A stretch of 24,802 bases of DNA from IMG/VR virus record IMGVR_UViG_3300042558_003650, positions 1 through 24,802 of that record; one strand, 5' to 3'. Position numbers and translations under genes: made by a program. Shown piece by piece: positions 1 to 23,969 of this stretch. The notes beneath the pieces are model-generated. The model was not told the DNA's origin, did not search any database, and worked only from the letters and a program-made list of their open reading frames with translations. Source of the stretch: a virus. The first letter of the stretch is position 1, and every line of letters starts with the position of its first letter.

Positions 1-1482
1 CTGGATGGCAGCAAGACCGAAGAGCAGCTGTACTCGCTGCTCGACACGGGCTACGCACGCCGCTGCTTCTTCGCCTACAACCGCAGCACGGACAAGCGCA
101 CCGACCTCACCCCCGAGCAGCTCTACGAGATGCGTACCAAGCAGGACTCTCACCAGTTCCTGCAAGACTACGCGGACCATTTGGAGAGCCTGGCTGATGT
201 GCTCAACGCCAACAAGCAACTGGCCATCAGCAAAGACACCTCTCTGCTGCTGAACGAGTACGAACTGCTGTGCAGCAAGCGAGCCAGTGAGCTGCCGGTG
301 CATGACGAGCTCAAGAAGAAGGAAGTGGCTCACCGTCACTTCAAGAGCCTGAAGCTCGCAGGTGCCTACGCTTTCATCGACGGCAGCCCTGAAGTCACCG
401 AGCAGCATCTGTACTACGCCATCAAGTTGGCCGAAGAATCGGGTGCAGCCTTCAACCAGTTGCTGACGCGGGACCGCCCCTACGTCAAGCTGGCCAAGTA
501 CATCGCAGACATCGGCCGCGAAGTGACGCAAGCCGACATGGTCGAAGATCTCCCGTTCTACAAAGGCTCGTCGGCACAGCGTGCTGAGATGATGACCCTG
601 GCTACAGCCTGGGGCTACAAGAACAACATCGTCATCAAGAAGTCGTTCAGCGACGGCATCGAGTTCATGCGCGGTGAGGCCCTCAAGCCCACCAACCTGG
701 ACGAGATGGTGGTGGCTTGGAGCACGGACATCGTCGAAGGCTACAAGCCTGAGCTGGCTCCGTTCGACAAGCTGCACATCCTGACCCAGAAGCAAGGCCT
801 GCACTGGACTACGCACCACCTGACCAACGGCTACCGCAACGAGGACAACGCCATCCCCGGCTTCAACCTCGTGGTGATCGACGTGGACGGTGGAGTGAAC
901 ATCAGCACCGCCAAGCTGTTGCTCAAGGACTACAAGTTCCTGCTCTACACGACCAAGCGGCACACCGACACCGAGCACCGCTTCCGCATCGTCCTGCCCA
1001 TCAACTACGAGTTGAAGCTGGACGCCAAGGACTACCGAGAGCTGATGAACAACATCAAGGACTGGATGCCCTTCGATGTGGACACGGCTACGTTCCAGCG
1101 TGCTCGCAAGTGGCTCAGCCACGATGGGCACTTCGAGTACCAAGACGGCCAAGTGCTGGACGTTCTGCCCTTCATTCCGAAGACCAGCAAGAACGAAGAG
1201 CGCAAGGCACTGCTCGACAGCCAGCAGAACCTCGATGCGCTCGAGCGCTGGGTCATGAACAACATCGGTGACGGCAACCGCAACAACATGCTGCACCGCT
1301 ACGTTCGGATCCTGGTGGACGCTGGCTTTGGCTTCGATGACATCCGAGTCAAGGTCTTTGCCCTGAACGACAAGATCGCAGACAAGCTGAGCGAAGCTGA
1401 GCTTCTGTCCACGGTCATGACGACAGCAGGCCGAGAGCTGATCAAGCGCGGGAGCGCTGGAGCAAGCTCGACTACTCCGTGA
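1..1482 (+). CDS. Helicase-like / AEP-type primase replication protein (N4 gp43-like), 5'-truncated
   Basis: The frame is open from the first base, so this is the C-terminal 493 residues of a longer protein; the ATG at 130 is internal. Three parts are visible (numbering from window base 1). Residues 1-150 resemble the end of a phage helicase/ATPase module (DTGYARRCFF at 15-24, then an SPEVTEQHL helical lid). Residues about 160-216 look like a winged helix. Residues about 285-380 look like an archaeo-eukaryotic-type primase core: motif I VIDVDG (D294, D296), motif II HTDTEHRFRIVLP (321-333), motif III FDVDTATFQRARKW (358-371). The likely role is priming and unwinding in phage DNA replication, together with the downstream ATPase and SSB. 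Assignment to N4 gp43 rests on position and general character. The primase motifs are persuasive; the helicase part is inferred because its Walker motifs lie outside the window. Confidence 0.75.
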   Translation: MDGSKTEEQLYSLLDTGYARRCFFAYNRSTDKRTDLTPEQLYEMRTKQDSHQFLQDYADHLESLADVLNANKQLAISKDTSLLLNEYELLCSKRASELPVHDELKKKEVAHRHFKSLKLAGAYAFIDGSPEVTEQHLYYAIKLAEESGAAFNQLLTRDRPYVKLAKYIADIGREVTQADMVEDLPFYKGSSAQRAEMMTLATAWGYKNNIVIKKSFSDGIEFMRGEALKPTNLDEMVVAWSTDIVEGYKPELAPFDKLHILTQKQGLHWTTHHLTNGYRNEDNAIPGFNLVVIDVDGGVNISTAKLLLKDYKFLLYTTKRHTDTEHRFRIVLPINYELKLDAKDYRELMNNIKDWMPFDVDTATFQRARKWLSHDGHFEYQDGQVLDVLPFIPKTSKNEERKALLDSQQNLDALERWVMNNIGDGNRNNMLHRYVRILVDAGFGFDDIRVKVFALNDKIADKLSEAELLSTVMTTAGRELIKRGSAGASSTTP

Positions 1483-1503
1483 TGGAGTAGGCAGTAAGGG
1501 CTA

Positions 1504-1522
1504 ACCCCTAGAACATAGGGGT
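1504..1522. other. Intercistronic hairpin
   Basis: Perfect 7-bp inverted repeat, ACCCCTA - GAACA - TAGGGGT, 22 bases after the primase stop. No T-run follows, so it is not a convincing intrinsic terminator. It could be an RNA-processing or regulatory stem in the about 100-base gap before the next gene, which otherwise shows no coding potential. Confidence 0.4.
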
Positions 1523-1583
1523 ATCCCAAAACGGTAGAGAAAACGATAGTCCGGCCATTGCAACCAAACCCTCGGGATTGGAC

Positions 1584-2057
1584 ATGATGGCCCTGACTCC
1601 TACCCACCTCCATCTGTTTGTTGAAACCAAGGCACCAACCGGTGCCTGGCAAGCAGAGGCAGCTGCAACCTTTCGGGAAAGAGAATCTCTGATCCAGAAG
1701 GGTTGCTTGCTGCGAACCATGGAAGAAATCCCTTGCCCCAAAGATCGGCTGCTCTACAGCATGCTGACCGATGGGGTATGGGATTCTCTGCCCTGGTCAT
1801 GCTGGGCAAAGGGGTTTCCAGAAGACGCATCACCAGAGCTGCAAGCTCTGAGAGAAACCTGGAACACCGAGGGATTCGGTGACAACTATCTCACCGTCCA
1901 AGAGCTGATGGAAAAGTACATCGAGCTCGGCACAGACCACAGGCCAGAAGCCCAGGTGCTGAAGCTGAGACTCGCTGACCTTATCTACACCCTGACTGCC
2001 ACACTGAAGAAAGCCACTCCTGCGGATGAGCGCAGAGTAGTGTTCTGGTTTCAGTAG
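1584..2057 (+). CDS. Conserved phage hypothetical protein (157 aa)
   Basis: Function unknown. I prefer the ATG at 1584, with GGGA about 6 bases upstream, over the in-frame TTG at 1578. The middle of the protein (KDRLLYSMLTDGVW ... GFPEDASPEL ... YLTVQELMEKY) follows a pattern I associate with a widespread uncharacterised phage family: a charged 'DR-x-LF/LY-x-LxxV' segment, then 'GLP/GFP-x-D-xS', then 'WLTL/YLTV-x-EL'. No signal peptide or membrane segment is seen. It sits alone between the replication protein and a strong terminator, so it probably ends that transcription unit. It has more rare-looking codons and lower GC than its neighbours, which may indicate a separately acquired gene. Confidence 0.65.
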   Translation: MMALTPTHLHLFVETKAPTGAWQAEAAATFRERESLIQKGCLLRTMEEIPCPKDRLLYSMLTDGVWDSLPWSCWAKGFPEDASPELQALRETWNTEGFGDNYLTVQELMEKYIELGTDHRPEAQVLKLRLADLIYTLTATLKKATPADERRVVFWFQ

Positions 2058-2067
2058 CTACATCAAA

Positions 2068-2088
2068 CAGGTGCCCTCCGGGCACTTG
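2068..2088. other. Hairpin with 3-base loop, N4-vRNAP-promoter-like geometry
   Basis: CAGGTGCCC - TCC - GGGCACTTG, a 9-bp stem with one G-T pair. On the minus strand the loop reads GGA. N4 vRNAP recognises single-stranded hairpins with 5-7 bp stems and 3-base loops; the N4 P2 loop is GGA as I recall it. If this were such a promoter with the minus strand as template, transcription would run rightward from about 2089. A terminator starts 12 bases later, so a first-stem or attenuator role is equally likely. Confidence 0.3.
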
Positions 2089-2100
2089 GTGATCACGTGC

Positions 2101-2125
2101 AAAGCCACCTTCGGGTGGCTTTTTC
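2101..2125. terminator. Intrinsic terminator with UUCG loop
   Basis: AAAGCCACC - TTCG - GGTGGCTTT followed by TTC: 9-bp stem, stable UUCG tetraloop and T-run on the plus strand. The A-run before the stem could let it work in both directions. It ends the unit containing the 1584-2057 gene and separates it from the ATPase. Confidence 0.85.
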
Positions 2126-2156
2126 TTTGGTCACTACAACTTCATCGAGACCATCA

Positions 2157-2888
2157 ATGAGTCAAACCACAGTCAACGACAAGCTCGTCCTGATCGGCGG
2201 CAAGTCGGCAGTGGGCAAGTCTGCGTCCCTCATGGGACTGCAGAAGCCCGAAGGTGTGATGTATTTGAACTGCGAAGCCGGCAAGAAGCTGCCATTTCGC
2301 TCCAAGTTCAAAGAGCTCACCGTCACGGATCCCATGCAGATCTACGAGGCCTTCGAGGTCGCGGAGACGATGCCCGAGATCCACACCATCGTCATCGACA
2401 CGCTGACGTACCTGCTGGAGATGTACGAGTCGATGTACGTGCTCAACTCGGCCAACACCATGCAAGCCTGGGGCCAGTTCGCCCAGTACTTCAAGGTGCT
2501 GATGCAGCAGCACGTGGCCAAGAGCACCAAGAACGTGATCTTCCTGGCTCACGTGGCCGACAAGCTGAACGAGAACGAGATGGTCATGGAGACCTCTGTT
2601 CCCGTGAAGGGCTCGCTCAAGAGCAACGGCATCGAGAGTTACTTCTCGACGGTGTTGAGCGCCCGCAAGGTGCCGCTCAAAGCCCTGAAGGAGATGAAGA
2701 ATCCCCTTCTGGTGATCACACCCGAAGAAGAAGCGCTGGGTTTCAAGTACGTGTTCCAAACTCGGCTGACCAAGGAAACGGTCAACGAGCGCATGCGCGG
2801 GCCTCTCGGCCTTTGGGCTGCCAACGAGATCTACATCGACAACAACATGCAGCATGTCATCGACAGGCTGAACCAGTACTACGACTGA
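2157..2888 (+). CDS. RecA/Sak4-like P-loop ATPase (N4 gp44-like)
   Basis: A 243-residue P-loop NTPase. Walker A is GKSAVGKS at about residues 15-22; a Walker B-like strand IVIDT carries D81. The compact single-domain layout and 'nucleotide-binding protein next to SSB' position match the phage RecA-like/Sak4 or AAA_24 group, which acts in recombination or replication of phage DNA. ATG 2157 is chosen because the P-loop starts shortly after it and the upstream extension back to 2097 would be read from inside the terminator. The Shine-Dalgarno is weak (GAGA about 6 bases upstream). N4 gp44 is a core gene at this position. Whether it promotes annealing, loads SSB or acts as a helicase accessory cannot be told from sequence alone. 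Confidence 0.8.
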   Translation: MSQTTVNDKLVLIGGKSAVGKSASLMGLQKPEGVMYLNCEAGKKLPFRSKFKELTVTDPMQIYEAFEVAETMPEIHTIVIDTLTYLLEMYESMYVLNSANTMQAWGQFAQYFKVLMQQHVAKSTKNVIFLAHVADKLNENEMVMETSVPVKGSLKSNGIESYFSTVLSARKVPLKALKEMKNPLLVITPEEEALGFKYVFQTRLTKETVNERMRGPLGLWAANEIYIDNNMQHVIDRLNQYYD

Positions 2889-2926
2889 GATTCATAAACC
2901 CTGCTAGAGATACTCTCCAAGCAGGG
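2885..2926 (+). promoter_or_regulatory. Nested hairpin and possible sigma70-like promoter upstream of SSB
   Basis: CCCTGCT (2899-2905) pairs with AGCAGGG (2920-2926). Inside, AGAG-ATA-CTCT forms a second small stem that contains AGATACTCT (2908-2916), a 9-mer repeated in the late region. The same stretch can be read as a weak sigma70 promoter: CTGAGA (2885-2890), an 18-base spacer and GATACT (2909-2914), giving a leader of about 60 bases before the SSB start. The stem is seen directly; the promoter reading is inference. Confidence 0.4.
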
Positions 2927-2963
2927 AATATGAAATACAGTTACCTCCCTTCACCCAAATCCC

Positions 2964-2975
2964 CTCTCCAAGGAA
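2964..2975 (+). promoter_or_regulatory. Ribosome-binding block of SSB, shared with capsid gene
   Basis: CTCTCCAAGGAA ends 6 bases before ATG 2982 and contains a good Shine-Dalgarno (AAGGAA). The identical 12-mer precedes the major capsid gene (23986-23975, minus). This fixes the SSB start and marks both genes as probably highly translated. Confidence 0.6.
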
Positions 2976-2981
2976 ATCATC

Positions 2982-3725
2982 ATGAGCTTGCTCAAGAACC
3001 TCGCATCCGACCAATCCATCGCCAACGAGAAAGACACCCTCGGCGGCAGCCGTGTCCTGGACACCGGCCTGCACATGCTGAACATCACCCTGGCCTACGT
3101 CACCGTCGCCGCCAGCGGTGCCCTCGGCTTGGTGCTGGGCGCCAAGACCAGCTCCGGCCAGGAGTACCGTGAAACCCTGTGGATGTCCTCGGGCACCGCC
3201 AAGGGCGCCAAGAACTACTACGAGAAGGACGGCGAGAAGATCTACCTGCCGGGATACCTCGTGGCCAACAGCCTGGCCCTGCTGACCGTGGGCAAGGAGA
3301 TCAGCGAACTGGACACCGAAGAGAAGGTTGTCGGCGTCTACAACGCAGAAGCCAAGCAGGAAGTGCCCACCAAGGTCAACATGATCATGGACCTGCTGGG
3401 CCAGCAGATCCTGGCCGGCATCGTCAAGCAGACGGTGGACAGGACCAAGAAGAACGAGGCGACCGGCGCCTACGAGGCCACGGGCGAGACCCGTGACGAG
3501 AACGTCATCGACAAGCTGTTCCGTGCCAAGGACCGCATGACGACCGCCGAGATCCGTGCGCAAGCCGAGACGGCCACGTTTGCCGACACCTGGGCCGAGA
3601 AGAACACGGGCGTGACCCGCAACCGTGCCAAGGGTGCCGCAGCCGCTGGCAAGCCGGGTGCTCCTCGCCTGAACGGTGCTGCAGCCGCAGCCGGCGCCCC
3701 CAAGAGCAAGAGCCTGTTCGGCTGA
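2982..3725 (+). CDS. ssb: N4-type single-stranded DNA-binding protein
   Basis: A 247-residue protein recognised as an N4 gp45-like SSB mainly from size, position after the P-loop ATPase and overall character: a compact N-terminal core (about 1-190) rich in beta-type segments, then a basic Ala/Gly/Pro/Lys-rich tail ending KSKSLFG. N4 SSB is unrelated in sequence to bacterial OB-fold SSBs; it coats phage DNA during replication and activates host sigma70 RNAP at late promoters through its C-terminal region. The start is set by AAGGAA 7 bases upstream. The gene follows a nested hairpin that could allow autoregulation and is followed by another stem-loop (3734-3756). The C-terminal SLFG is repeated at the end of the 4716-5081 product, which suggests a shared docking tail. 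Confidence 0.75.
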   Translation: MSLLKNLASDQSIANEKDTLGGSRVLDTGLHMLNITLAYVTVAASGALGLVLGAKTSSGQEYRETLWMSSGTAKGAKNYYEKDGEKIYLPGYLVANSLALLTVGKEISELDTEEKVVGVYNAEAKQEVPTKVNMIMDLLGQQILAGIVKQTVDRTKKNEATGAYEATGETRDENVIDKLFRAKDRMTTAEIRAQAETATFADTWAEKNTGVTRNRAKGAAAAGKPGAPRLNGAAAAAGAPKSKSLFG

Positions 3726-8300: not shown

Positions 8301-11300
8301 CCAGTCAGCTTGCCCGTCACCAAAGCCAAGGCTTTGTGGAAGAGGTAAGTCAGTCGGTCGGCCCAGCTCTGAGGACCGGTGGAGGCCTGGCGAACAGCAG
8401 TAGCCCGCTGCAGTGCTTGGTTCACCTCTTGGTGCCCCAGACCCATCGCCACAAACCTGGTGATGTAGTCCGAGCGCTTGTCAGCACCTTGCTCGACAGC
8501 AAACAGGAAAGCGTGCAAGTCAGGATCCGTGAAGTCGCTCGGCTTCAAGGTGTTCCGCGCTTCCACGTACAGCTTGCTGAGCTCACGGTACAGCAAGCCA
8601 GTCTGAGCAATGTCATCCAAGGAAGCACGCATCGTCGCTTCCACTTGCTCGATCACAAAAGCCTCTTGCTCCGTCACCAAGCCGGGAAGAGCCGGCAGCA
8701 CCTTCGAGGCAAACGGCGCTTCCCCGGTCAACTGAGCCTTGACCCACACATCGTGCGGCGTCATGGCCACAGTGCCTTGCAGGTTGGCTGCCCAGCTTCC
8801 CTTGGGGCCATGCACCTTGTCCGACACTGCAGTCAGCAGGCCCTTCAGAGACTCCTGGAACCCGCTGTTCAGTGTCTTGCCCGTAGCACTCACCGTCGAA
8901 GGCAGAGCATCAAAGATCTGCTCGCTGGTGTAGCGCATCGCAGGGTGTGCGTTACCTGGAGCTTGCTGGCTCAGATTTTGAGCTACTGCAGGCTTTGCAG
9001 TGCTCTGCTCAACGTACTTGAACAAGCCAGCAACATCACTGATCAGCACAGTCAGTGCGTTGGTGGCTTTGTCTTTGTTGGCAACGCTTGTGTCTTTGAA
9101 AAAGAACCGACGCACAGTTTCGATGAACGACTTCATCCCACTGACCAACGAGTTGTTCTTGTTCTTGTGCTCCTTGACTTGGATCTTCGCCAGCACCTTG
9201 GTCTGGAAGTCCCGGTTCGTCATGCCCCAGGCCACCAGCTCTTGCACGTTCAGTGCAGCGTTGCCAAAGCCCAGCTCTGGATTCGCAGCCAGGAAAGTCT
9301 TCACTTCCTGCAGCAGAGTTTCCAGCTCAGTCACCAGCGCCTTGGCTTCAACAGTATCAGGACGCGCGATGGCTTCAGCCAAAGCTGCGTGGATGATCTC
9401 GTGCATCAGCACTTCAGGCCCCACAGCCGCATGCGTGAACGCAGGGCTGAGAACGTAGATCTCGCGTTGACCACGGTTGGTGGCGACGTACCAGCCCCTG
9501 GAGTTGCTCAAATGAGCCTTCTCCAAGACATCTCCAGCAGGGGTGTCAGGCGTCACATACTTCACCGTCACAGACTCACCAGCAGCTTTGACTGCCCGGT
9601 TGAGCAAGGCCACCAGGCCTTCTTCTTGAGACCCGCTACCCTGCAGCTGAGCCCGGATCACCGGGAGCAGCTCGCGCACGCTCACACGGCCACGAGACGA
9701 CAGCAGCTTGACCAGCTCTTCGTTTTGCAGCGCCGGATTCGAGCCACCCAAATCCCCCCAAGCGTTCTTCTTCGCAGGATCTTGAGCCGCAGCATTGCGT
9801 GCCAAAGCCTGGATCGTCTCTGCCTTCTGCTGTGTCGGCAAGGCATTCACAGCCGTCTTCACAGCTTCCACCGTGCCTTTTTTTGCAGCTTCCTTCACTT
9901 CCGGAGCCACACCAGGCGCTTCCAGAGCAGTCATCAGCTTCACGCCTTCAGCACCCAAAGCCTTGGCAGACTTCATCTCGACTTCGTTGTCCGTGCCGTC
10001 CGTCTCAGCTTCGAGCTTCACTTCCACAGGAGCAGGAGCGTTGGGCACCTCACGCCCGTAGAGCACCTCTTCGAGGTAGCGAGCAGCCATGGGAGCCATT
10101 GACTCCGGCTGGGAATCCAGTTGCTCAAGCATGGCTTGTGCAGCGTTGCGGATCTTCTCCGTCACGACAAACTGACCCCCTTCCCAGGTGTACTGGTCAA
10201 CAGTCTTCATCTGAGCAATCGTGCCCAAGCGAATACGGTCAGCAGCCAGAGCCAGCATCTCTGCTTCAGCCAGCATGTGGCTCACTGCGTCTTCGACAGG
10301 AATTGCACCCTTCTTCTTCTTGCCGTTGATCTGCTTGGCGATCTGCTCGTAGGCAGCACGCGCAGCAGACACAGGCAGCTTGCCCGAGCGCACCATGCGA
10401 GCCAGGGCAATCACCTGACGCTCCAGCATCCGGCGAGCTTCAGCAGCCGGAGAGTAGGTCAGCAGGTTCTCTACCGTGGTCTGGTTGATGTTCTTCGAGG
10501 CTTGGGCAATGTTCTCGACACTCACAGCCTGCTCGTCGTGAATGTTCAGAGCCTGGAAGTCCGCACCCATCTCATCGGCAAAGTGCATGTTGCCGCTGTC
10601 CAGCGAGTGGATCGAGTACGGAGTGCCTGCAGCACCTGGTGCAGCTTCTGTAGAGCGCACAGCGCCAGTAGCCACCTTGTTGCTGTCTCTACCCACCAGA
10701 GGGGTGCCCACTTGCACAGTGCTCTGGAAGATAGGATCTCCGCTCAAGCCACGGTCTTCCTTGGCCATGTAGATGCCAGCCGCGAGATCGTTGCCTTCAG
10801 CCGTGTAGACCGAGTTCATCGCAGGACGCAACGGACCTAGGCTCTCCCAGAGCTCTTGCTCTTGAGCCTGGTTCAAGTCGTGCAGAGGAATGCGCTTGCC
10901 CGTGGGCACAGCAGGCAGAGCCTTGCCGTTCTTGTCTCGGCCAGGAGACTTGCGCTCTTCACGGTACGCCAGATCACCAGACTCCATCAGACGCTGGATC
11001 ATCTGTTCACGAGCTGCAGCGTAGGCAGCTTCGTAGAGTCGGTAGCCAGTCTCGATCACCTTGTTCAGGGTGCGCCGGCGCTCAATGAACGTGGCGAAGT
11101 GAGCTTCCATGGTCTCTTCGACCGCATAGCCCATGATCTGGTAAAAAGCCTTCTCCAGCGCTCGACGCTGCGGGAACAGATTGTCTGCCAGCAACTGCTC
11201 TGCAGTGGCAGATTCGTTCAGAGGCTTGCCACCCCCCACCACGATCAGAGTGTTCAGGGCCTGGATCAGCTCCGTCAGGTCAGCAACATCTTTGCGCTTA

Positions 11301-14300
11301 CCCTGAGCTACATCTTCAATGGTCGTGTAGATCCCTTCGATGAAAGCGTTCTGCATGTTGGCCACAGACTTCGACAGCTGTGAACCAAACGCAAACGAAG
11401 TCATCGGGGTTTTCATCAGGTTGCGAGTAGCACCCGACACCCCATCAGCGCCCTCACGCAGGGGCTTGGTGATCTTCTGGAAGGCAGCCCAGATCTGCGG
11501 GTCGAAACCAGCAGACTCTTCGATCATTTTCAGCACCTGGTTGCCCAGATCCTGGTACAGGTCTTGGCCGCCCTTCTCAGCGTACTGACTGAAGTGCTCT
11601 TCTTCGTTGCCCAAGGCAAACATGCCGCCTTGGTTCATGACCCGGTAAAGGCCTTCCACAGTCTCTGCAGCGCCCAGAGCCAGGTGCGTCAGCACAGGGC
11701 CGTTGGTCTTGCCGTCAGCGCCCACCAGCAGGTTGACCTCGAAGTCAGCGCCAGTCTCTGCAGCTTCCAAGTACTGCGCCAGGGCCAGCAGGCCCTGCAG
11801 CGACATCATCTTCTCAGCACCGCCAGCCACCTGAGACACCAGCTTCTGGTTCTCAGGCGTCCAGACGCTCATGTCTTTGCGCAGCACACCTTGACGGATG
11901 ACTTCTGCAGCACGACGCACATCCGAAGTCGGATCGTTGAAGATCTTCTGGTAGCCAGAAGTCTTCATCGTTTCTGCGTTGGTTTGCTTGTCCGTCTTCA
12001 CACCCAGCGCCTGAGCCACCGAGATCTTGAACTCAGTCAGCAGCGCTTCGTTGCTGAAAGAGATCTTCGTCTTCCAGTTCGGGCGCGTGAAGGCAAACCG
12101 GTGCAGCTTGCTCGACTGCATGTTGAGCGACTGGGTCTTGATGCCCACACGGAAGTTGCGCCAGACCTCGTACTCGACAAACATCTGCCGATCTTTGGCC
12201 CGTTGGACGATCTGCCCAAAGACACCAGCCGGCAAATCTTCACGGAGAGTCTCAGGCAAGCCCAGCATCTCCATCATCTGCTCGTACTGCACCGACAGGT
12301 TGTCGTTCTGAGCTTCGATGCTGCCCAGACGTTCAACGTGAATCTTGCTCCCGTCAGGCTCGACCCAACCAGCAGCTTCCAGCGTGGCTTGCTTGCCAAG
12401 GCCCAGCATCAGATCCAGCATCTCAGGGATCACCTGGTGCGGCACCTTCTGAGCACGGTTCAGAACCTTGGCCAACTTGGCAGGAATCTTCTGACGGGTG
12501 CCCTTGGCAAACTCTTGCTTGAACTTGGCTGGCTTCTCCAGAGCCGTGCGGGTCAGCGACTCCACACCAAACATCTTGTCCACAGCCGATCCAGAGTACC
12601 GGTTGGTGTTCTTGATGTCTTCGATTTCAAGCCAGGCTGAAGCACTGCCAGCCAGGCCTTCACGAGAGAACTGGACGTACTTGAACTTGGTCTCGGCCCC
12701 GTAGCGCTCAGCTTGCTTCTCGGAGTCTTTGAAGAAATCCTGAGCTACCTGACGTGCGTTCATCTCATGCCGCACCAGCACTCCCTTGCGCTCCAACAGC
12801 GCCAGGGCATGCACACCCAGAGCAGCCTGCAGACGAGGCAGCAAGTCTTGCGGTGCGTCTTTCATGGCACGCAAGCCCAGGGCTTCCACAGCGGCTTGGC
12901 CCAGCGTGTTGATCACGACTTCTTCAAAGCCAGCCATGTGCTTCAGAGCTTGGCGACCTTCCAGCGTCAGCACATCACCTTCAGCTCGCCCGTGCATCTC
13001 CAGGATCTCCAGGGGCAGCTTGGCCTTCGGAGTGTTGGCCTGATCAAGCGTCCAGCGGTAGGCCGAGTAGGCAACAGCGGTCAGCACGTTCTCGCTGAAC
13101 TTGCCAGTGCCCGGATCCACCAGGTAACGGCTCATGTCCTGATGCTGGAAGTCCTTGCTGATCTGAGCATAGGCCTCGGCATTGGGCATGTTTTCCCGCA
13201 GGTTCGAGAGCCAGCCAGAGCGAACGACCTTACCGTCACGCACTTTGTCGCTCAGCACCTGGCCAAAGTTCTTCAGTGCTGCCAGAGCTTGGATGCGCTC
13301 AACACTCTCAGCGTTGTACGAACGCAGCTTGTCCTTGAAAGCCTTCGGCAGGTACTGCCACTGAAGCAAGTTGTCTTGCCGCCATGCACTGAAGAAGTCT
13401 TGAAGCGAAGCCAGCGGCTTACCAGAGACTTCCTTGCTACGGCCAGCGACTTGGTTAAAGAACGCTGCCACCAAGTTCACACCACGGAACACAGCGCCCA
13501 CTTTGCTGGACTCAAGAGCAGCACGGTCTTGCTCTGCAGCTTGGAGTGCCGGCAGCTTGCCTTCAACTGCCAGGTCAGCGCTGCCTTCTTCCAGGTCTGT
13601 GGTTTCTTCCGTCGCCGTCTCCGCCAGCACTTCGGTCTGCGCCGGCTGCGCCTGCTCGACCTCGGCTGGCTGCACGGCTCCGAGAGTAGCTTCAGCAGGT
13701 GCAGCAGACGACGCCACCGGAGCCACAGGCGCAGCCGTAGTGGCGACGGGGGCAGAAGCCGGCACAGAAGGCGCAGGAGCAGGGGTAACAGCAGAAGGAG
13801 CCCCGTTGGTAGCCGGAGAAGGTGCAGAGGCTGTTGCAGGGGCTTTGGCGAGCTCCACGGCAGCACGGATGCTGTCCCGGCTTGCCTTGATAGCCTGGGC
13901 TTCGGTACGAATGTCCTGCACCACACCAATCGAACCAGGGTGGATCCGCAGGCTTCCGCTGTCACGAAGCTCTTTCTCGACTTCCTTCAAGTCCCTGGTC
14001 GGGTCGATAGGCTGCACTTCCCACCCGCCTTGCTCCAGCTTGACCAGTGCCACACCCATGGTGTTGCCTTGGGTGTTGCGAAGTTCAGTGGCTTGAGCCA
14101 GTGCTTCCCTGGCCTTGACTGCTTTGTCAGCATGGCTGGCCAAGAACTTTTGCAGACCAGCCACTTGCTTCAGTGCCATGTCGACGTTGCCGCCAGCCAG
14201 AGCCAGCCCTGCACGGCGGGTGTAGTCGGCAATGCCCAGCTGACGGGTCTTCGGATCCCCGTTCAGCACTTCGCTGCGGACCTTGCTCCCAGTCTTCAGC

Positions 14301-16315: not shown

Positions 16316-16338
16316 GCTGAAAGAGTATCTATTTCAGC
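16316..16338 (-). other. Hairpin over the gp51-like stop codon with AGATACTC loop
   Basis: GCTGAAA - TAGATACTC - TTTCAGC (minus strand), 7-bp stem, 9-base loop. The gp51-like stop TGA lies in the stem and the repeated AGATACTCT 9-mer (16330-16322) occupies the loop. It precedes the terminator by about 10 bases, so the leader of vRNAP contains two successive stems. Confidence 0.5.
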
Positions 16339-17809
16339 GCTGTCGCAGAGAAGCATCCACTTGCTGACGAATCAGTTTCAGAGTATCTGGGTCTGATCTT
16401 TGAAGGTCAACTTTGCCGTCAGACCCGATCACAACACCAGGCACCATAGTCTTGGCACGACGAGTAAGCTCATCAACAAAGGCTTTGTCTCGCTTGTAGT
16501 CACCGCTGGCCAGAGCTTCCGGCAGCTTGACACCAGGGTACTCACCTTTGGCTTGCTGCCCACGAATCAGCGCAGCAACTTCACGAGCAGGCATGGGAGC
16601 TGCAGCCAAAGGAGCAGCACCACGGCCAGCAGGCGTACCAGCGTCACGGGCCTTGGCAGGAGTACCGTCTTCGCCAGGAGCAATACCAGCAGCGCCCATG
16701 CTCTCCAGCATGGAAAGAGCAAAGTCCTTGTTCTCGTAACGCTTCTGCAGCAACTTGATGATGTCAGAAGCAGTGCCACCGTCAGTGCGCCAGGTGCTGC
16801 CAAAGGTGTCGCTGCCTTTGGTTGTAGCCGCAGCCACCACTTCACTGATCGAGATAGGAGCCCGGTAAGTCTTCCCATCCACCTTGATTGGGATACCCCC
16901 TTGCTGCTGAATGGCACCAGCCGCCGCAACCACAGCTTGAACTTCGTCTTCGCTGAGTTTTCCGACGCCAGTGAGGTTCTCCCGAAGCGTCTTGGCTCCG
17001 GTGTTGTTGTCAAACCAGCCCAGAGCCAGGGGACCAGTCTTCAGGATCTTGTCGGCCTTTTCTCGTTCGAGCTTGGCTGTCAAAGCATCCGAAGCAGTTT
17101 GCGCCTTGAGCTGGGCAGCACTGAGCCTGCTCGACGCTTCAGAGCTTGCTGCCGCAGCGTTGGAAGCACGAGTGCTCGCACGAAGCTGATCCAGTTCCAA
17201 AGGTGCCCGAGCTTCAGCACGTGCTGCGCCTTCACGCTGGAACCGTTGGTCTTCTGCTTCGTTGACCATCCGGAACTGCTCGCCTTGACGGGTCAGCAGA
17301 GCACGAGTGATGTCAGCGCCAAAGCGATTCCGAAGAGCCGGGTTGGCTTCCAGGATCTGGCCCACACCACCCACGTTGCCGTTCAGTGCTTCCAGCATGG
17401 CTTGCGACTGCAGAGGCCGCAGCTGCACAGTTTCCTGCGCATCGTTGTACTGGTTCTCAGCCAGACCACGTTGCTGCAGGGTAGCCAAACGGCTGTCCAG
17501 GAACTGGCGAGTAGCTCCCAGGTCGATCTGAGCACCGTACTGCGAGCGCAGAGCTTCGAGCTCACCCGAAGCCACAGCAGCCTTGAAGCCTTCAGGCGTG
17601 GCGTACTTCTGCATCGCTGCAGTCAGGAACGCATCGGTGTTGTTGGTCTTCCCCGTCTGCCAGTTGGCTTCGTCGTTAGCTTGTGCCCCCTTCAGGAGAT
17701 CACCCAGCGTCGCCATGCCAGCGTTGAAAGACTGCTGTGCAGTCTGGAAAGTACGGCTCGGATCCCCGAGGTTGGGCGCTTCGATGTTGCGCCAGGTGAT
17801 GACAGCCAT
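16334..17809 (-). CDS. Internal virion protein (N4 gp51-like), 491 aa
   Basis: Probably packaged with vRNAP, judging from its place directly upstream and its make-up. Residues 1-80 (FQTAQQSFNAGMATLGDLLKGAQANDEANWQ) form a helix of the type seen in podovirus internal/ejection proteins. Residues about 190-265 are Ala/Arg/Gln-rich and should be coiled coil. Residues about 385-420 are a Pro/Ala/Gly linker before a C-terminal helical region. No cysteine, no signal peptide, no enzyme motif. ATG 17809 follows AGGAG by 6 bases and the gp52-like stop by 12 bases. The function (tail tube extension, DNA ejection or vRNAP docking) is inference from synteny. Confidence 0.8.
   Translation of the reverse strand: MAVITWRNIEAPNLGDPSRTFQTAQQSFNAGMATLGDLLKGAQANDEANWQTGKTNNTDAFLTAAMQKYATPEGFKAAVASGELEALRSQYGAQIDLGATRQFLDSRLATLQQRGLAENQYNDAQETVQLRPLQSQAMLEALNGNVGGVGQILEANPALRNRFGADITRALLTRQGEQFRMVNEAEDQRFQREGAARAEARAPLELDQLRASTRASNAAAASSEASSRLSAAQLKAQTASDALTAKLEREKADKILKTGPLALGWFDNNTGAKTLRENLTGVGKLSEDEVQAVVAAAGAIQQQGGIPIKVDGKTYRAPISISEVVAAATTKGSDTFGSTWRTDGGTASDIIKLLQKRYENKDFALSMLESMGAAGIAPGEDGTPAKARDAGTPAGRGAAPLAAAPMPAREVAALIRGQQAKGEYPGVKLPEALASGDYKRDKAFVDELTRRAKTMVPGVVIGSDGKVDLQRSDPDTLKLIRQQVDASLRQR
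16382..16410 (-). promoter_or_regulatory. Candidate sigma70 promoter inside the end of the gp51-like gene
   Basis: TTGACC (16410-16405), exactly 17 bases, then GATACT (16387-16382) on the minus strand: 5/6 and 4/6 matches to sigma70 boxes with ideal spacing. The start would be near 16375, 135 bases before vRNAP, and the leader would run through the hairpin and terminator. The -10 is part of AGATACTCT. It lies in coding sequence, so chance is possible. Confidence 0.45.
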
Positions 17810-22487: not shown

Positions 22488-23969
22488 TTACAGCAGAGCT
22501 GCCGTCATGATCAGGCCCAGACGCTCCGAGCGGAGGATCATGAAGCCGTAGTACCACTTGATCGACATGAAGCCGGTCTCACCGTAGGGATCGGTGCGGT
22601 CAGCCGTTTCCAGGCCAGGCTTCTTGTTGTGGATGGTGAACTTCGTCGACTTGCCGTCCGTCTGGAACGAGATGGTCGTGAAGGCACCTTCACCGATCGC
22701 CAGCATCGGGAACACGTCGTAGCGACCGTTGGTGCGGTAGTACAGCGGATCCGAACCGTAGGCACCAGCGCCGGCCCACTTCGTCATCTCGGGGACGACG
22801 ATGATGCGCCAGTTGTCCACCGCGCCCACCTCACCCATCATGGTTGCACCACCAGCGGCGTACTTCTCGATGGAGATGAACGCCGGGTTGTTGTGCAGAT
22901 CCTTCATCGCCTTGATGGTCGGCAGCAGCTCCGAGCCGATGTACAGCGGACGCGCACCGGGGATGACACGGGTGTCCACCATGCGGGTGCCGGTGAACAT
23001 CGTGGTCTGCTTCGGCGTGCGAGCGTTGTCCAGGTCGATGGACAGGCGCATCAGGTCACCGTAGTCGACCAGGCCCTGGTTGGCACCGGCAGCAGCGGGA
23101 TCGATGGTCTGACGGCTCGTGGCGTTGCCAGGCCAGCGGATCGTGCTTGCCGAGGTCAGCAGGTCGATCTGCAGGGCATCTTCCGTCATCTCGGCAGCGC
23201 CGTTGACCATCTCACGGGTCACGTGCTGTTCGAGGTCGGCGTCCGAGTCGAAGTCCAGCGATTCCTTGGTGTACTCGTCGAAGAAGCCGAACTTCTCCAG
23301 CGAGCCTTCCAGTTCACGGCGCTTGAAGCCGACACGGTTCACCCGGCCACCGTTTTCCGACAGCACCGGCATCTTGCCGTTGATCAGGCCGATGTCCTTG
23401 GACGAGCCGTACAGGTTGCCCGAGCCACGCTGCACCGTCGCACCGAAGCCCAGAGCCGCCACCGCGTTGGCGTTGGTCAGGTTCAGGTACTTCACGACAC
23501 GGTTGGGGGCCATAGTCGTGTTCAGCGAGATCAGCGTGCGGCCAGCACCACCCGAGCCACCGGCACCAGCGGTAGCGACGTTCTGCTGACCGTTGGAGGG
23601 ACCGTTGACGTTCAGGTTGATGGCGGTCACCGCAGCAGCAGCCGTCGCATCGGTCACCGTGATGAAGTCCGGGAAGCTGACGTAGTACTCGGTGATGGCG
23701 ATGGTGGCGCCGGCAGCGTCGATGCCCTGGTCGTTCAGGTTGGCGTCGTCGAGCAGCGGCAGGTAGTGGTAGCGCTTGATCTTCTTGCCCATGTTCTTGG
23801 GCATCGAGATGGCGTCAGCGACCTGGGTGAAGTACTGCTCCTTGCGGGCCTCGATCAGCGCCTGCTTGATGAAGTAGTGCGGCTGGAGTTGGCCCTGCTG
23901 CACGACACCGTTGACGGTGCCACCAGTGTTGATGTCCGAATCCGGACCTGCTTTGAATTCACGAGTCAT
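22488..23969 (-). CDS. Major capsid protein (N4 gp56-like, HK97-type fold expected), 493 aa
   Basis: Recognised by position and signature segments: MPKNMGKKIKRYHYLPLLDD near residue 55, GNLYGSSKD and GGRVNRVGFKRRELEGS around 180-220, TREMVNGAAEMTEDALQIDLL about 250-270, and a C-terminal region resembling N4-family capsids. It is longer than N4 gp56 (401 residues as I recall). Residues about 100-150 are Ala/Gly/Asn/Ser-rich and look like an inserted surface or N-arm loop. No cysteine. AAGGAA in a 12-mer shared with SSB lies 5-6 bases before ATG 23969. It forms the capsid shell and should be the most abundant virion protein. Confidence 0.88.
   Translation of the reverse strand: MTREFKAGPDSDINTGGTVNGVVQQGQLQPHYFIKQALIEARKEQYFTQVADAISMPKNMGKKIKRYHYLPLLDDANLNDQGIDAAGATIAITEYYVSFPDFITVTDATAAAAVTAINLNVNGPSNGQQNVATAGAGGSGGAGRTLISLNTTMAPNRVVKYLNLTNANAVAALGFGATVQRGSGNLYGSSKDIGLINGKMPVLSENGGRVNRVGFKRRELEGSLEKFGFFDEYTKESLDFDSDADLEQHVTREMVNGAAEMTEDALQIDLLTSASTIRWPGNATSRQTIDPAAAGANQGLVDYGDLMRLSIDLDNARTPKQTTMFTGTRMVDTRVIPGARPLYIGSELLPTIKAMKDLHNNPAFISIEKYAAGGATMMGEVGAVDNWRIIVVPEMTKWAGAGAYGSDPLYYRTNGRYDVFPMLAIGEGAFTTISFQTDGKSTKFTIHNKKPGLETADRTDPYGETGFMSIKWYYGFMILRSERLGLIMTAALL

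Follow-up and report, generated by a model that had tools for sequence, protein, structure and literature searches.

A phenylalanine at the place of T7 Y639 in a virion RNA polymerase, and its association with a histidine across a branch of Schitoviridae

Described polymerases and the window enzyme

Ribose selection in single-subunit RNA polymerases is known largely from mutants of the T7 enzyme. In the parts of the literature drawn on here, the 2'-OH of the sugar is linked in T7 to Y639 and H784 (PMC13286181), H784 having been given a minor-groove role in another paper (PMC4551944), and the Y639F mutant, in which H784 is in place, uses both rNTPs and dNTPs, its use of dNTPs being strengthened by S641A (PMC8155940). 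For the virion RNA polymerase (vRNAP) of phage N4, present at 4 +/- 1 copies per virion (PMC12633501) and counted with the genes that N4 requires to replicate its DNA, the catalytic residues R424, K670, Y678, D559 and D951 have been given (PMC2784036), as well as a HExxH motif in the C1 part of the C-terminal domain (PMC12633501). The vRNAPs of N4, a roseophage, LUZ7 and LIT1/PEV2 are free of cysteine (PMC3715699, PMC2784036). The N4-like phages of Pseudomonas include LIT1, PEV2 and DEV (Litunavirus), the last of them a component of a cocktail for experimental therapy (PMC10925440), together with LUZ7 (Luzseptimavirus), phCDa (Shizishanvirus) and 98PfluR60PP (Littlefixvirus).

A supplementary legend of the 2010 paper on LUZ7, LIT1 and PEV2 names "the Y678F substitution", and the main text, in the portion cited here, assigns the corresponding supplementary figure to the second, heterodimeric polymerase (PMC3715699). 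The legend is hardly about that enzyme, because the gp16-like subunit of LIT1 has Tyr in motif B; the number 678 belongs to a residue of the N4 vRNAP. Read by eye, the second T7-like polymerase of LIT1 (putative RNAP2, L324:7726-8967) has both Tyr and His (FYGSK and VIHSID); judging from these sequences, the vRNAP alone is without the Tyr within LIT1. The Phe substitution is thus known since 2010, and the polymerase described here is a new, distant Phe-type member.

The DNA that we analysed (the window) comprises 24,802 bases, positions 1 to 24,802 of IMG/VR record IMGVR_UViG_3300042558_003650, a fragment without the larger part of the phage genome, and carries a very long open frame (Table 1) of which residues 69-3613 match positions 28-3401 of the 3406 in PHROG 2206 (virion RNA polymerase), with a printed E value of 0. 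By this near end-to-end family match, its product is a predicted member of the Schitoviridae virion RNA polymerase family. As in LUZ7 and LIT1/PEV2 (PMC3715699), cysteine is absent, here from all 3,622 residues. Pfam returned nothing for this protein at the default limit and, at E values up to 1, two sub-threshold matches, vRNAP_dom_2 among them. The HExxH motif is conserved in this distant N4 relative as HEIIH (H2280-H2284, window 9389-9403, minus strand). PHROG matches also indicate an N4-like neighbourhood, including a primase, a ssDNA-binding protein, a virion structural protein, a major head protein and a tape measure; the genes standing where N4 has gp52 and gp51 match families of unknown function. 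Two genes of 177 and 749 aa occupy the place of the N4 ejection proteins, and between them and the vRNAP sits a 491-aa protein (16334-17809, minus strand) with a good match to the unknown-function family phrog_6467 for residues 1-216 only; the counterpart position in LUZ7, between the vRNAP and the gp52-like gene, holds ORF74. Residues 16-491 of the 493-aa major head protein (22488-23969, minus strand) are spread over profile positions 20-346, suggestive of about 150 additional residues in this protein.

The AlphaFold2 model of the polymerase core (mean pLDDT 91.2, pTM 0.90) matched N4 vRNAP chains with Z scores of 21.3-29.4 (937-959 residues aligned, rmsd 4.2-4.6, 16% identity) and T7 RNAP with a best Z of 18.2 (519 residues aligned, rmsd 3.8, 12-13% identity); as modelled, the core has the mini-vRNAP fold, related to that of T7 RNAP. 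With N4 vRNAP (gp50) the window enzyme shares its giant size, the predicted fold, the catalytic Arg, Lys and Asp residues and a HExxH motif after the core, whereas N4 has Tyr678, no His at the place of T7 H784, and FDG instead of HD in motif C. With T7 RNAP it shares the predicted single-subunit polymerase fold, motifs B and C and a His at the 784 place; unlike the T7 enzyme, its core is embedded in a protein of 3,622 aa whose family is packed in virions, and, as wild-type T7 has Tyr, its pair of Phe and His is that of the T7 Y639F mutant. The vRNAPs of the Pseudomonas phages listed above resemble it in both residues, the Phe at the N4 Y678 position and the His at that of T7 H784, and their motif B has the same shape (RNVIKKPLTAMMFGSN in LIT1, PEV2 and DEV; RKVIKQPLTAMMFGSN in LUZ7). 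Identity with LIT1 is 29.2% over 93% of the queried stretch (tblastn), and the window lies on another branch. We use "Phe-type" for enzymes that combine these two residues, a grouping made here, and file the window as Phe-type (LIT1-like) and not Tyr-type because the Tyr of the Rx3Kx7YG pattern is replaced by F1618.

Table 1. Features of the predicted virion RNA polymerase, with their positions in the window
Feature	Position	Strand	Basis
Virion RNA polymerase (vRNAP), 3,622 aa	5372..16240	-	One open frame; PHROG 2206
Polymerase core, aa 945-2057, N4 mini-vRNAP counterpart	10070..13408	-	AlphaFold2, structure matches
R1364, Arg of T/DxxGR (T7 R425, N4 R424)	12149..12151	-	Alignment; Arg in 190/190
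Motif A D1509 (N4 D559, T7 D537)	11714..11716	-	N4 alignment; Asp in 190/190
G1514, place of T7 G542 (Asp+5)	11699..11701	-	Gly in 169/169 rows
Motif B, R1606 to G1619, RNLMKTPMTSFAFG	11384..11425	-	Translation; Arg and Lys in 190/190 cores
F1618 (TTT), place of T7 Y639 and N4 Y678	11387..11389	-	Alignments and profile slide
S1620, place of T7 S641	11381..11383	-	hhalign, profile slide
H1878 (CAC), place of T7 H784	10607..10609	-	Profile slide, alignment
Motif C H1901-D1902 (T7 H811-D812; N4 D951)	10535..10540	-	Alignment; Asp in 190/190

Placement and distribution of the motif B phenylalanine

The initial annotation of this DNA had set F1618 on T7 Y639 and N4 Y678 without gaps, and three approaches agree with that placement. 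In a phmmer comparison, motif B aligned gap-free with the N4 vRNAP, FAFGSQ lying over TIYGSG. An hhalign comparison of a 61-sequence alignment (A9) with T7 RNAP, weak as an overall match (probability 0.72%, E 0.079), had motif B as its sole aligned stretch, ungapped from R1606 and pairing F1618 with Y639 and S1620 with S641. When a profile of the Phe rows was slid along the whole T7 RNAP, F1618 fell best on Y639, at 4.8 s.d. over the mean, the next best place reaching 3.3. The codon is as clearly TTT as had been stated, and a sequencing error is very unlikely because the same stretch occurs with 100% identity in one further IMG/VR contig (L002 and L023 are one contig, possibly no independent sample) and Phe is found in 72 other distinct cores. 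The catalytic residues, also described beforehand as intact, are so: R1364, D1509, R1606, K1610 and D1902 are identical in all 190 cores compared, the motif A assignment resting on the N4 alignment because the T7 profile slide missed D537 and had its best place at K711.

To establish how common the Phe is, vRNAP cores of at least 480 aa were collected from named phages, IMG/VR relatives and one MAG contig. From 313 rows we retained 190 distinct cores, the window included, nine rows below the length threshold having been removed (L002, L023, L245, L114, L083, L304, L250, L094 and L201). Phe stands at the Y678 place in 73 cores and Tyr in 117, proportions that are not a population frequency because the scans favour relatives of their seeds: the peptide patterns of the IMG/VR scan exclude the Phe/Tyr site yet have this preference, and two scans comprise the best 80 matches. 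The 20 phages fetched for the census, from 277 phage records that tblastn matched, have Phe in LIT1, phCDa and 98PfluR60PP and Tyr in the other 17; these three phages and the IMG/VR cores rule out a Phe unique to the window phage. PEV2, DEV and LUZ7, chosen later as Pseudomonas relatives and standing outside the 190, also have Phe and the His at the H784 place. Both codons of each residue are in use (TTT 46, TTC 26, TAT 82 and TAC 35 among 189 cores). A scan of genome contigs detected one relative with Phe plus His, JANJVG010000124.1 (L322), a contig of 127 kb assigned to a Burkholderiaceae MAG, which is possibly a phage or provirus inside a bacterial bin.

Mapped on vRNAP trees, as the initial annotation had envisaged, Phe groups as a clade trait. 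In a first tree, built from 127 rows that share less than 80% identity, the window belongs to a set of 23 rows, all with Phe (SH-aLRT 96), nested in a set of 37 rows with 33 Phe and 4 Tyr (SH-aLRT 97), and the N4-type half has Tyr in 63/63 rows. The nearest relatives of the window among the matches listed are uncultivated contigs, with 42% identity at most, and its mostly Phe clade includes the Pseudomonas phages LIT1, LUZ7, PEV2, DEV, phCDa and 98PfluR60PP. For a second tree, rows at least 80% identical to a kept row were removed, leaving 150, and the 60 N4-type rows were thinned, leaving 101. All 58 Phe rows of this tree fall, with 11 Tyr/Gln and 2 Tyr/His rows, in one set of 71 (SH-aLRT 98), and at least seven changes between Phe and Tyr are needed along its branches. 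By this reconstruction from sequence, Phe is an old inherited clade trait that has undergone several switches, the tree being silent on their direction. The initial annotation had left open how common the Phe is, with the proviso that its being universal in the clade would lower the novelty, and the outcome went that way, given the 73 cores, the clade distribution and the 2010 legend. What is added here is the extent of the substitution and its link with a His.

Association of the phenylalanine with a histidine at the T7 H784 place

Slid along T7 RNAP in the same way, the Phe-row profile placed H1878 (in IHSLDS) best on H784, at 4.4 s.d. and with close runners-up (3.9 and 3.9); the slide also placed the motif C Asp on D812, and 24 residues separate the His from this Asp in the window, against 28 in T7. 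Across the 190 cores compared, His is present at this place in 73/73 Phe cores and in 17/117 Tyr cores, so that the place is without His in 100 of the Tyr cores and in none of the Phe cores. By alignment, these other Tyr cores have Gln in 25 cases and another residue in 75; counting back from the Asp, they have Gln in 23 and another residue, mostly Gly, in 77, the placement of gaps affecting two of the 25 Gln calls (L019 and L159) and no His call. The N4-type rows have Ile or Val in this column by alignment and mostly Gly when counted back from the Asp. Within the 71-row set, the Tyr/Gln rows form four groups (L061/L079/L203/L318; L074; L084; and an Acinetobacter/Klebsiella/Pectobacterium/Enterobacter group), and two single Tyr rows retain the His (L051 and L242).

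On the 101-row tree, a model in which the two sites depend on each other was preferred over an independent one (LR 24.9, 4 d.f., p 5e-5). The dependent model also won after removal of the N4-type clade, of the long branches, of both, and of both plus the Acinetobacter/Klebsiella clade (LR 22.7, 22.7, 19.5 and 16.9, respectively; p 1.5e-4 to 2e-3), two-site models of this kind being open to sway by few events. With one extra rate, the His was estimated to be lost at 0.42-0.58 per unit branch where Tyr is present and at close to 0 where Phe is. Coupling to the Phe/Tyr switch was also calculated for 127 of 584 columns, namely those whose most frequent Phe-row residue is shared by no fewer than 60% of the Phe rows and by no more than 90% of the Tyr rows: the H784 column came first (24.8; next 19.1; median 5.0), a column that had been chosen from knowledge of T7 and after inspection of the 21 rows aligned first, themselves included in the tested set. 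Restricted to well supported branches, three independent pairs were available, with the His following in 1.5 of them on average and never the reverse, which is not significant; another pair test of this kind gave no significant result either.

Other residues were considered as partners of the Phe. The motif C His is a weaker candidate: it was found in 57/57 Phe rows with a residue there in an earlier, smaller set, but it is not fixed among Phe-type enzymes because L249 and L264 have Phe in its stead (NIFDA and DIFDA), and it follows in 0.2 of 2 independent pairs on average. The S641 place, with Ser in 63/73 Phe cores and 85/117 Tyr cores, offers no strong contrast between the two types and was discarded as a compensating site. 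The earlier suggestion that the enzyme might compensate elsewhere therefore survives in part, with indirect support at H1878 and none at the Ser and Gln positions following F1618 to which it had pointed, the S1620 place being Ser in most cores of both types. Position 1363 (12152-12154, minus strand), where the T/DxxGR motif has Gly, is Phe in the window, Gln in 60/73 Phe cores and Gly or Asn in 91/117 Tyr cores; its coupling to the Phe/Tyr switch is the third strongest among the tested columns.

Explanations of the Phe-type site and their meaning

We lean, with modest confidence, towards a His-based reading of the sugar with mild relaxation, in an enzyme that remains an RNA polymerase. F1618 would be an old natural form of the residue at T7 Y639/N4 Y678, inherited within a large branch of Schitoviridae vRNAPs in which reading of the 2'-OH would no longer pass through the Tyr hydroxyl and would rest on H1878, the His at this place apparently not being lost while Phe is present. 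The N4-type enzymes would represent the reverse, with Tyr kept and His absent. Since the catalytic set is intact and Gly is present at the T7 G542 place, the Phe-type enzyme would stay an RNA polymerase and would probably reject dNTPs somewhat less well. Cellular rNTPs exceed dNTPs, and such weakening may be cheap for an enzyme acting early in infection, in few copies per virion and on the rNTP-richer pool. It looks as though at least one residue of the Tyr/His pair must remain, as both are present in T7 and in the second polymerase of LIT1, the Tyr in N4 and the His in the window branch. The Phe branch may be relaxed, since T7 Y639F, with H784, still uses dNTPs, His alone not having restored selectivity in that enzyme (PMC8155940). 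That Tyr and His are two interchangeable ways of reading ribose, and that the Phe/His branch accepts dNTPs or 2'-modified NTPs much more readily than the N4 and T7 enzymes, is a possible but more doubtful extension.

It is rather unlikely, although the initial annotation had raised a tolerance of dNTPs as a possibility, that Phe-type enzymes admit dNTPs like T7 Y639F and make some mixed RNA/DNA products that are tolerated or used. The natural pair of Phe and His is the one of that mutant, a user of both kinds of substrate (PMC8155940), and the N4 vRNAP is essential for N4 DNA replication (PMC2784036), but this replication role concerns a Tyr enzyme, and S1620 is kept in the window, with no parallel to S641A (PMC8155940). 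The His in all 73 Phe cores further suggests that selection on sugar or base-pair reading persists. In the open-licence literature searched, we found neither the Phe-His link nor biochemistry on a Phe-type vRNAP, nor any description of such an enzyme using dNTPs.

Near-neutral drift appears improbable. The Tyr hydroxyl would matter little where rNTPs greatly exceed dNTPs, Tyr and Phe would interchange through a single base (TAY/TTY), and the His would be kept for catalysis or base-pair checking, its link with Phe reflecting shared ancestry. The repeated Phe/Tyr changes and the use of both codons of each residue fit such a scenario, as do the Tyr lineages L051 and L242 that retain His inside the Phe set and the small number of independent pairs; against it, the linked-site model is ahead in all five row sets, no tested column is coupled more strongly than the T7 partner site, and Phe is maintained across diverse rows, including 23/23 in the first-tree set of the window. 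Finally, an artefact, namely a misread base, a frame error or a misalignment hiding another Tyr that serves at the F1618 place, is scarcely credible given the clear frame, the gap-free alignment to N4 and T7 and the presence of Phe in 73 distinct cores, which rule out chance or error as the source of the Phe.

A whole natural branch of vRNAPs carries the equivalent of Y639F, and because it includes the laboratory phages LIT1, LUZ7 and PEV2, a comparison becomes possible that asks whether an RNA polymerase operates in nature without the Tyr hydroxyl, the His carrying the load. If they are relaxed, the Phe-type enzymes would be ready-made tools for 2'-modified RNA; if they are strict, they would represent a second solution to ribose selection.
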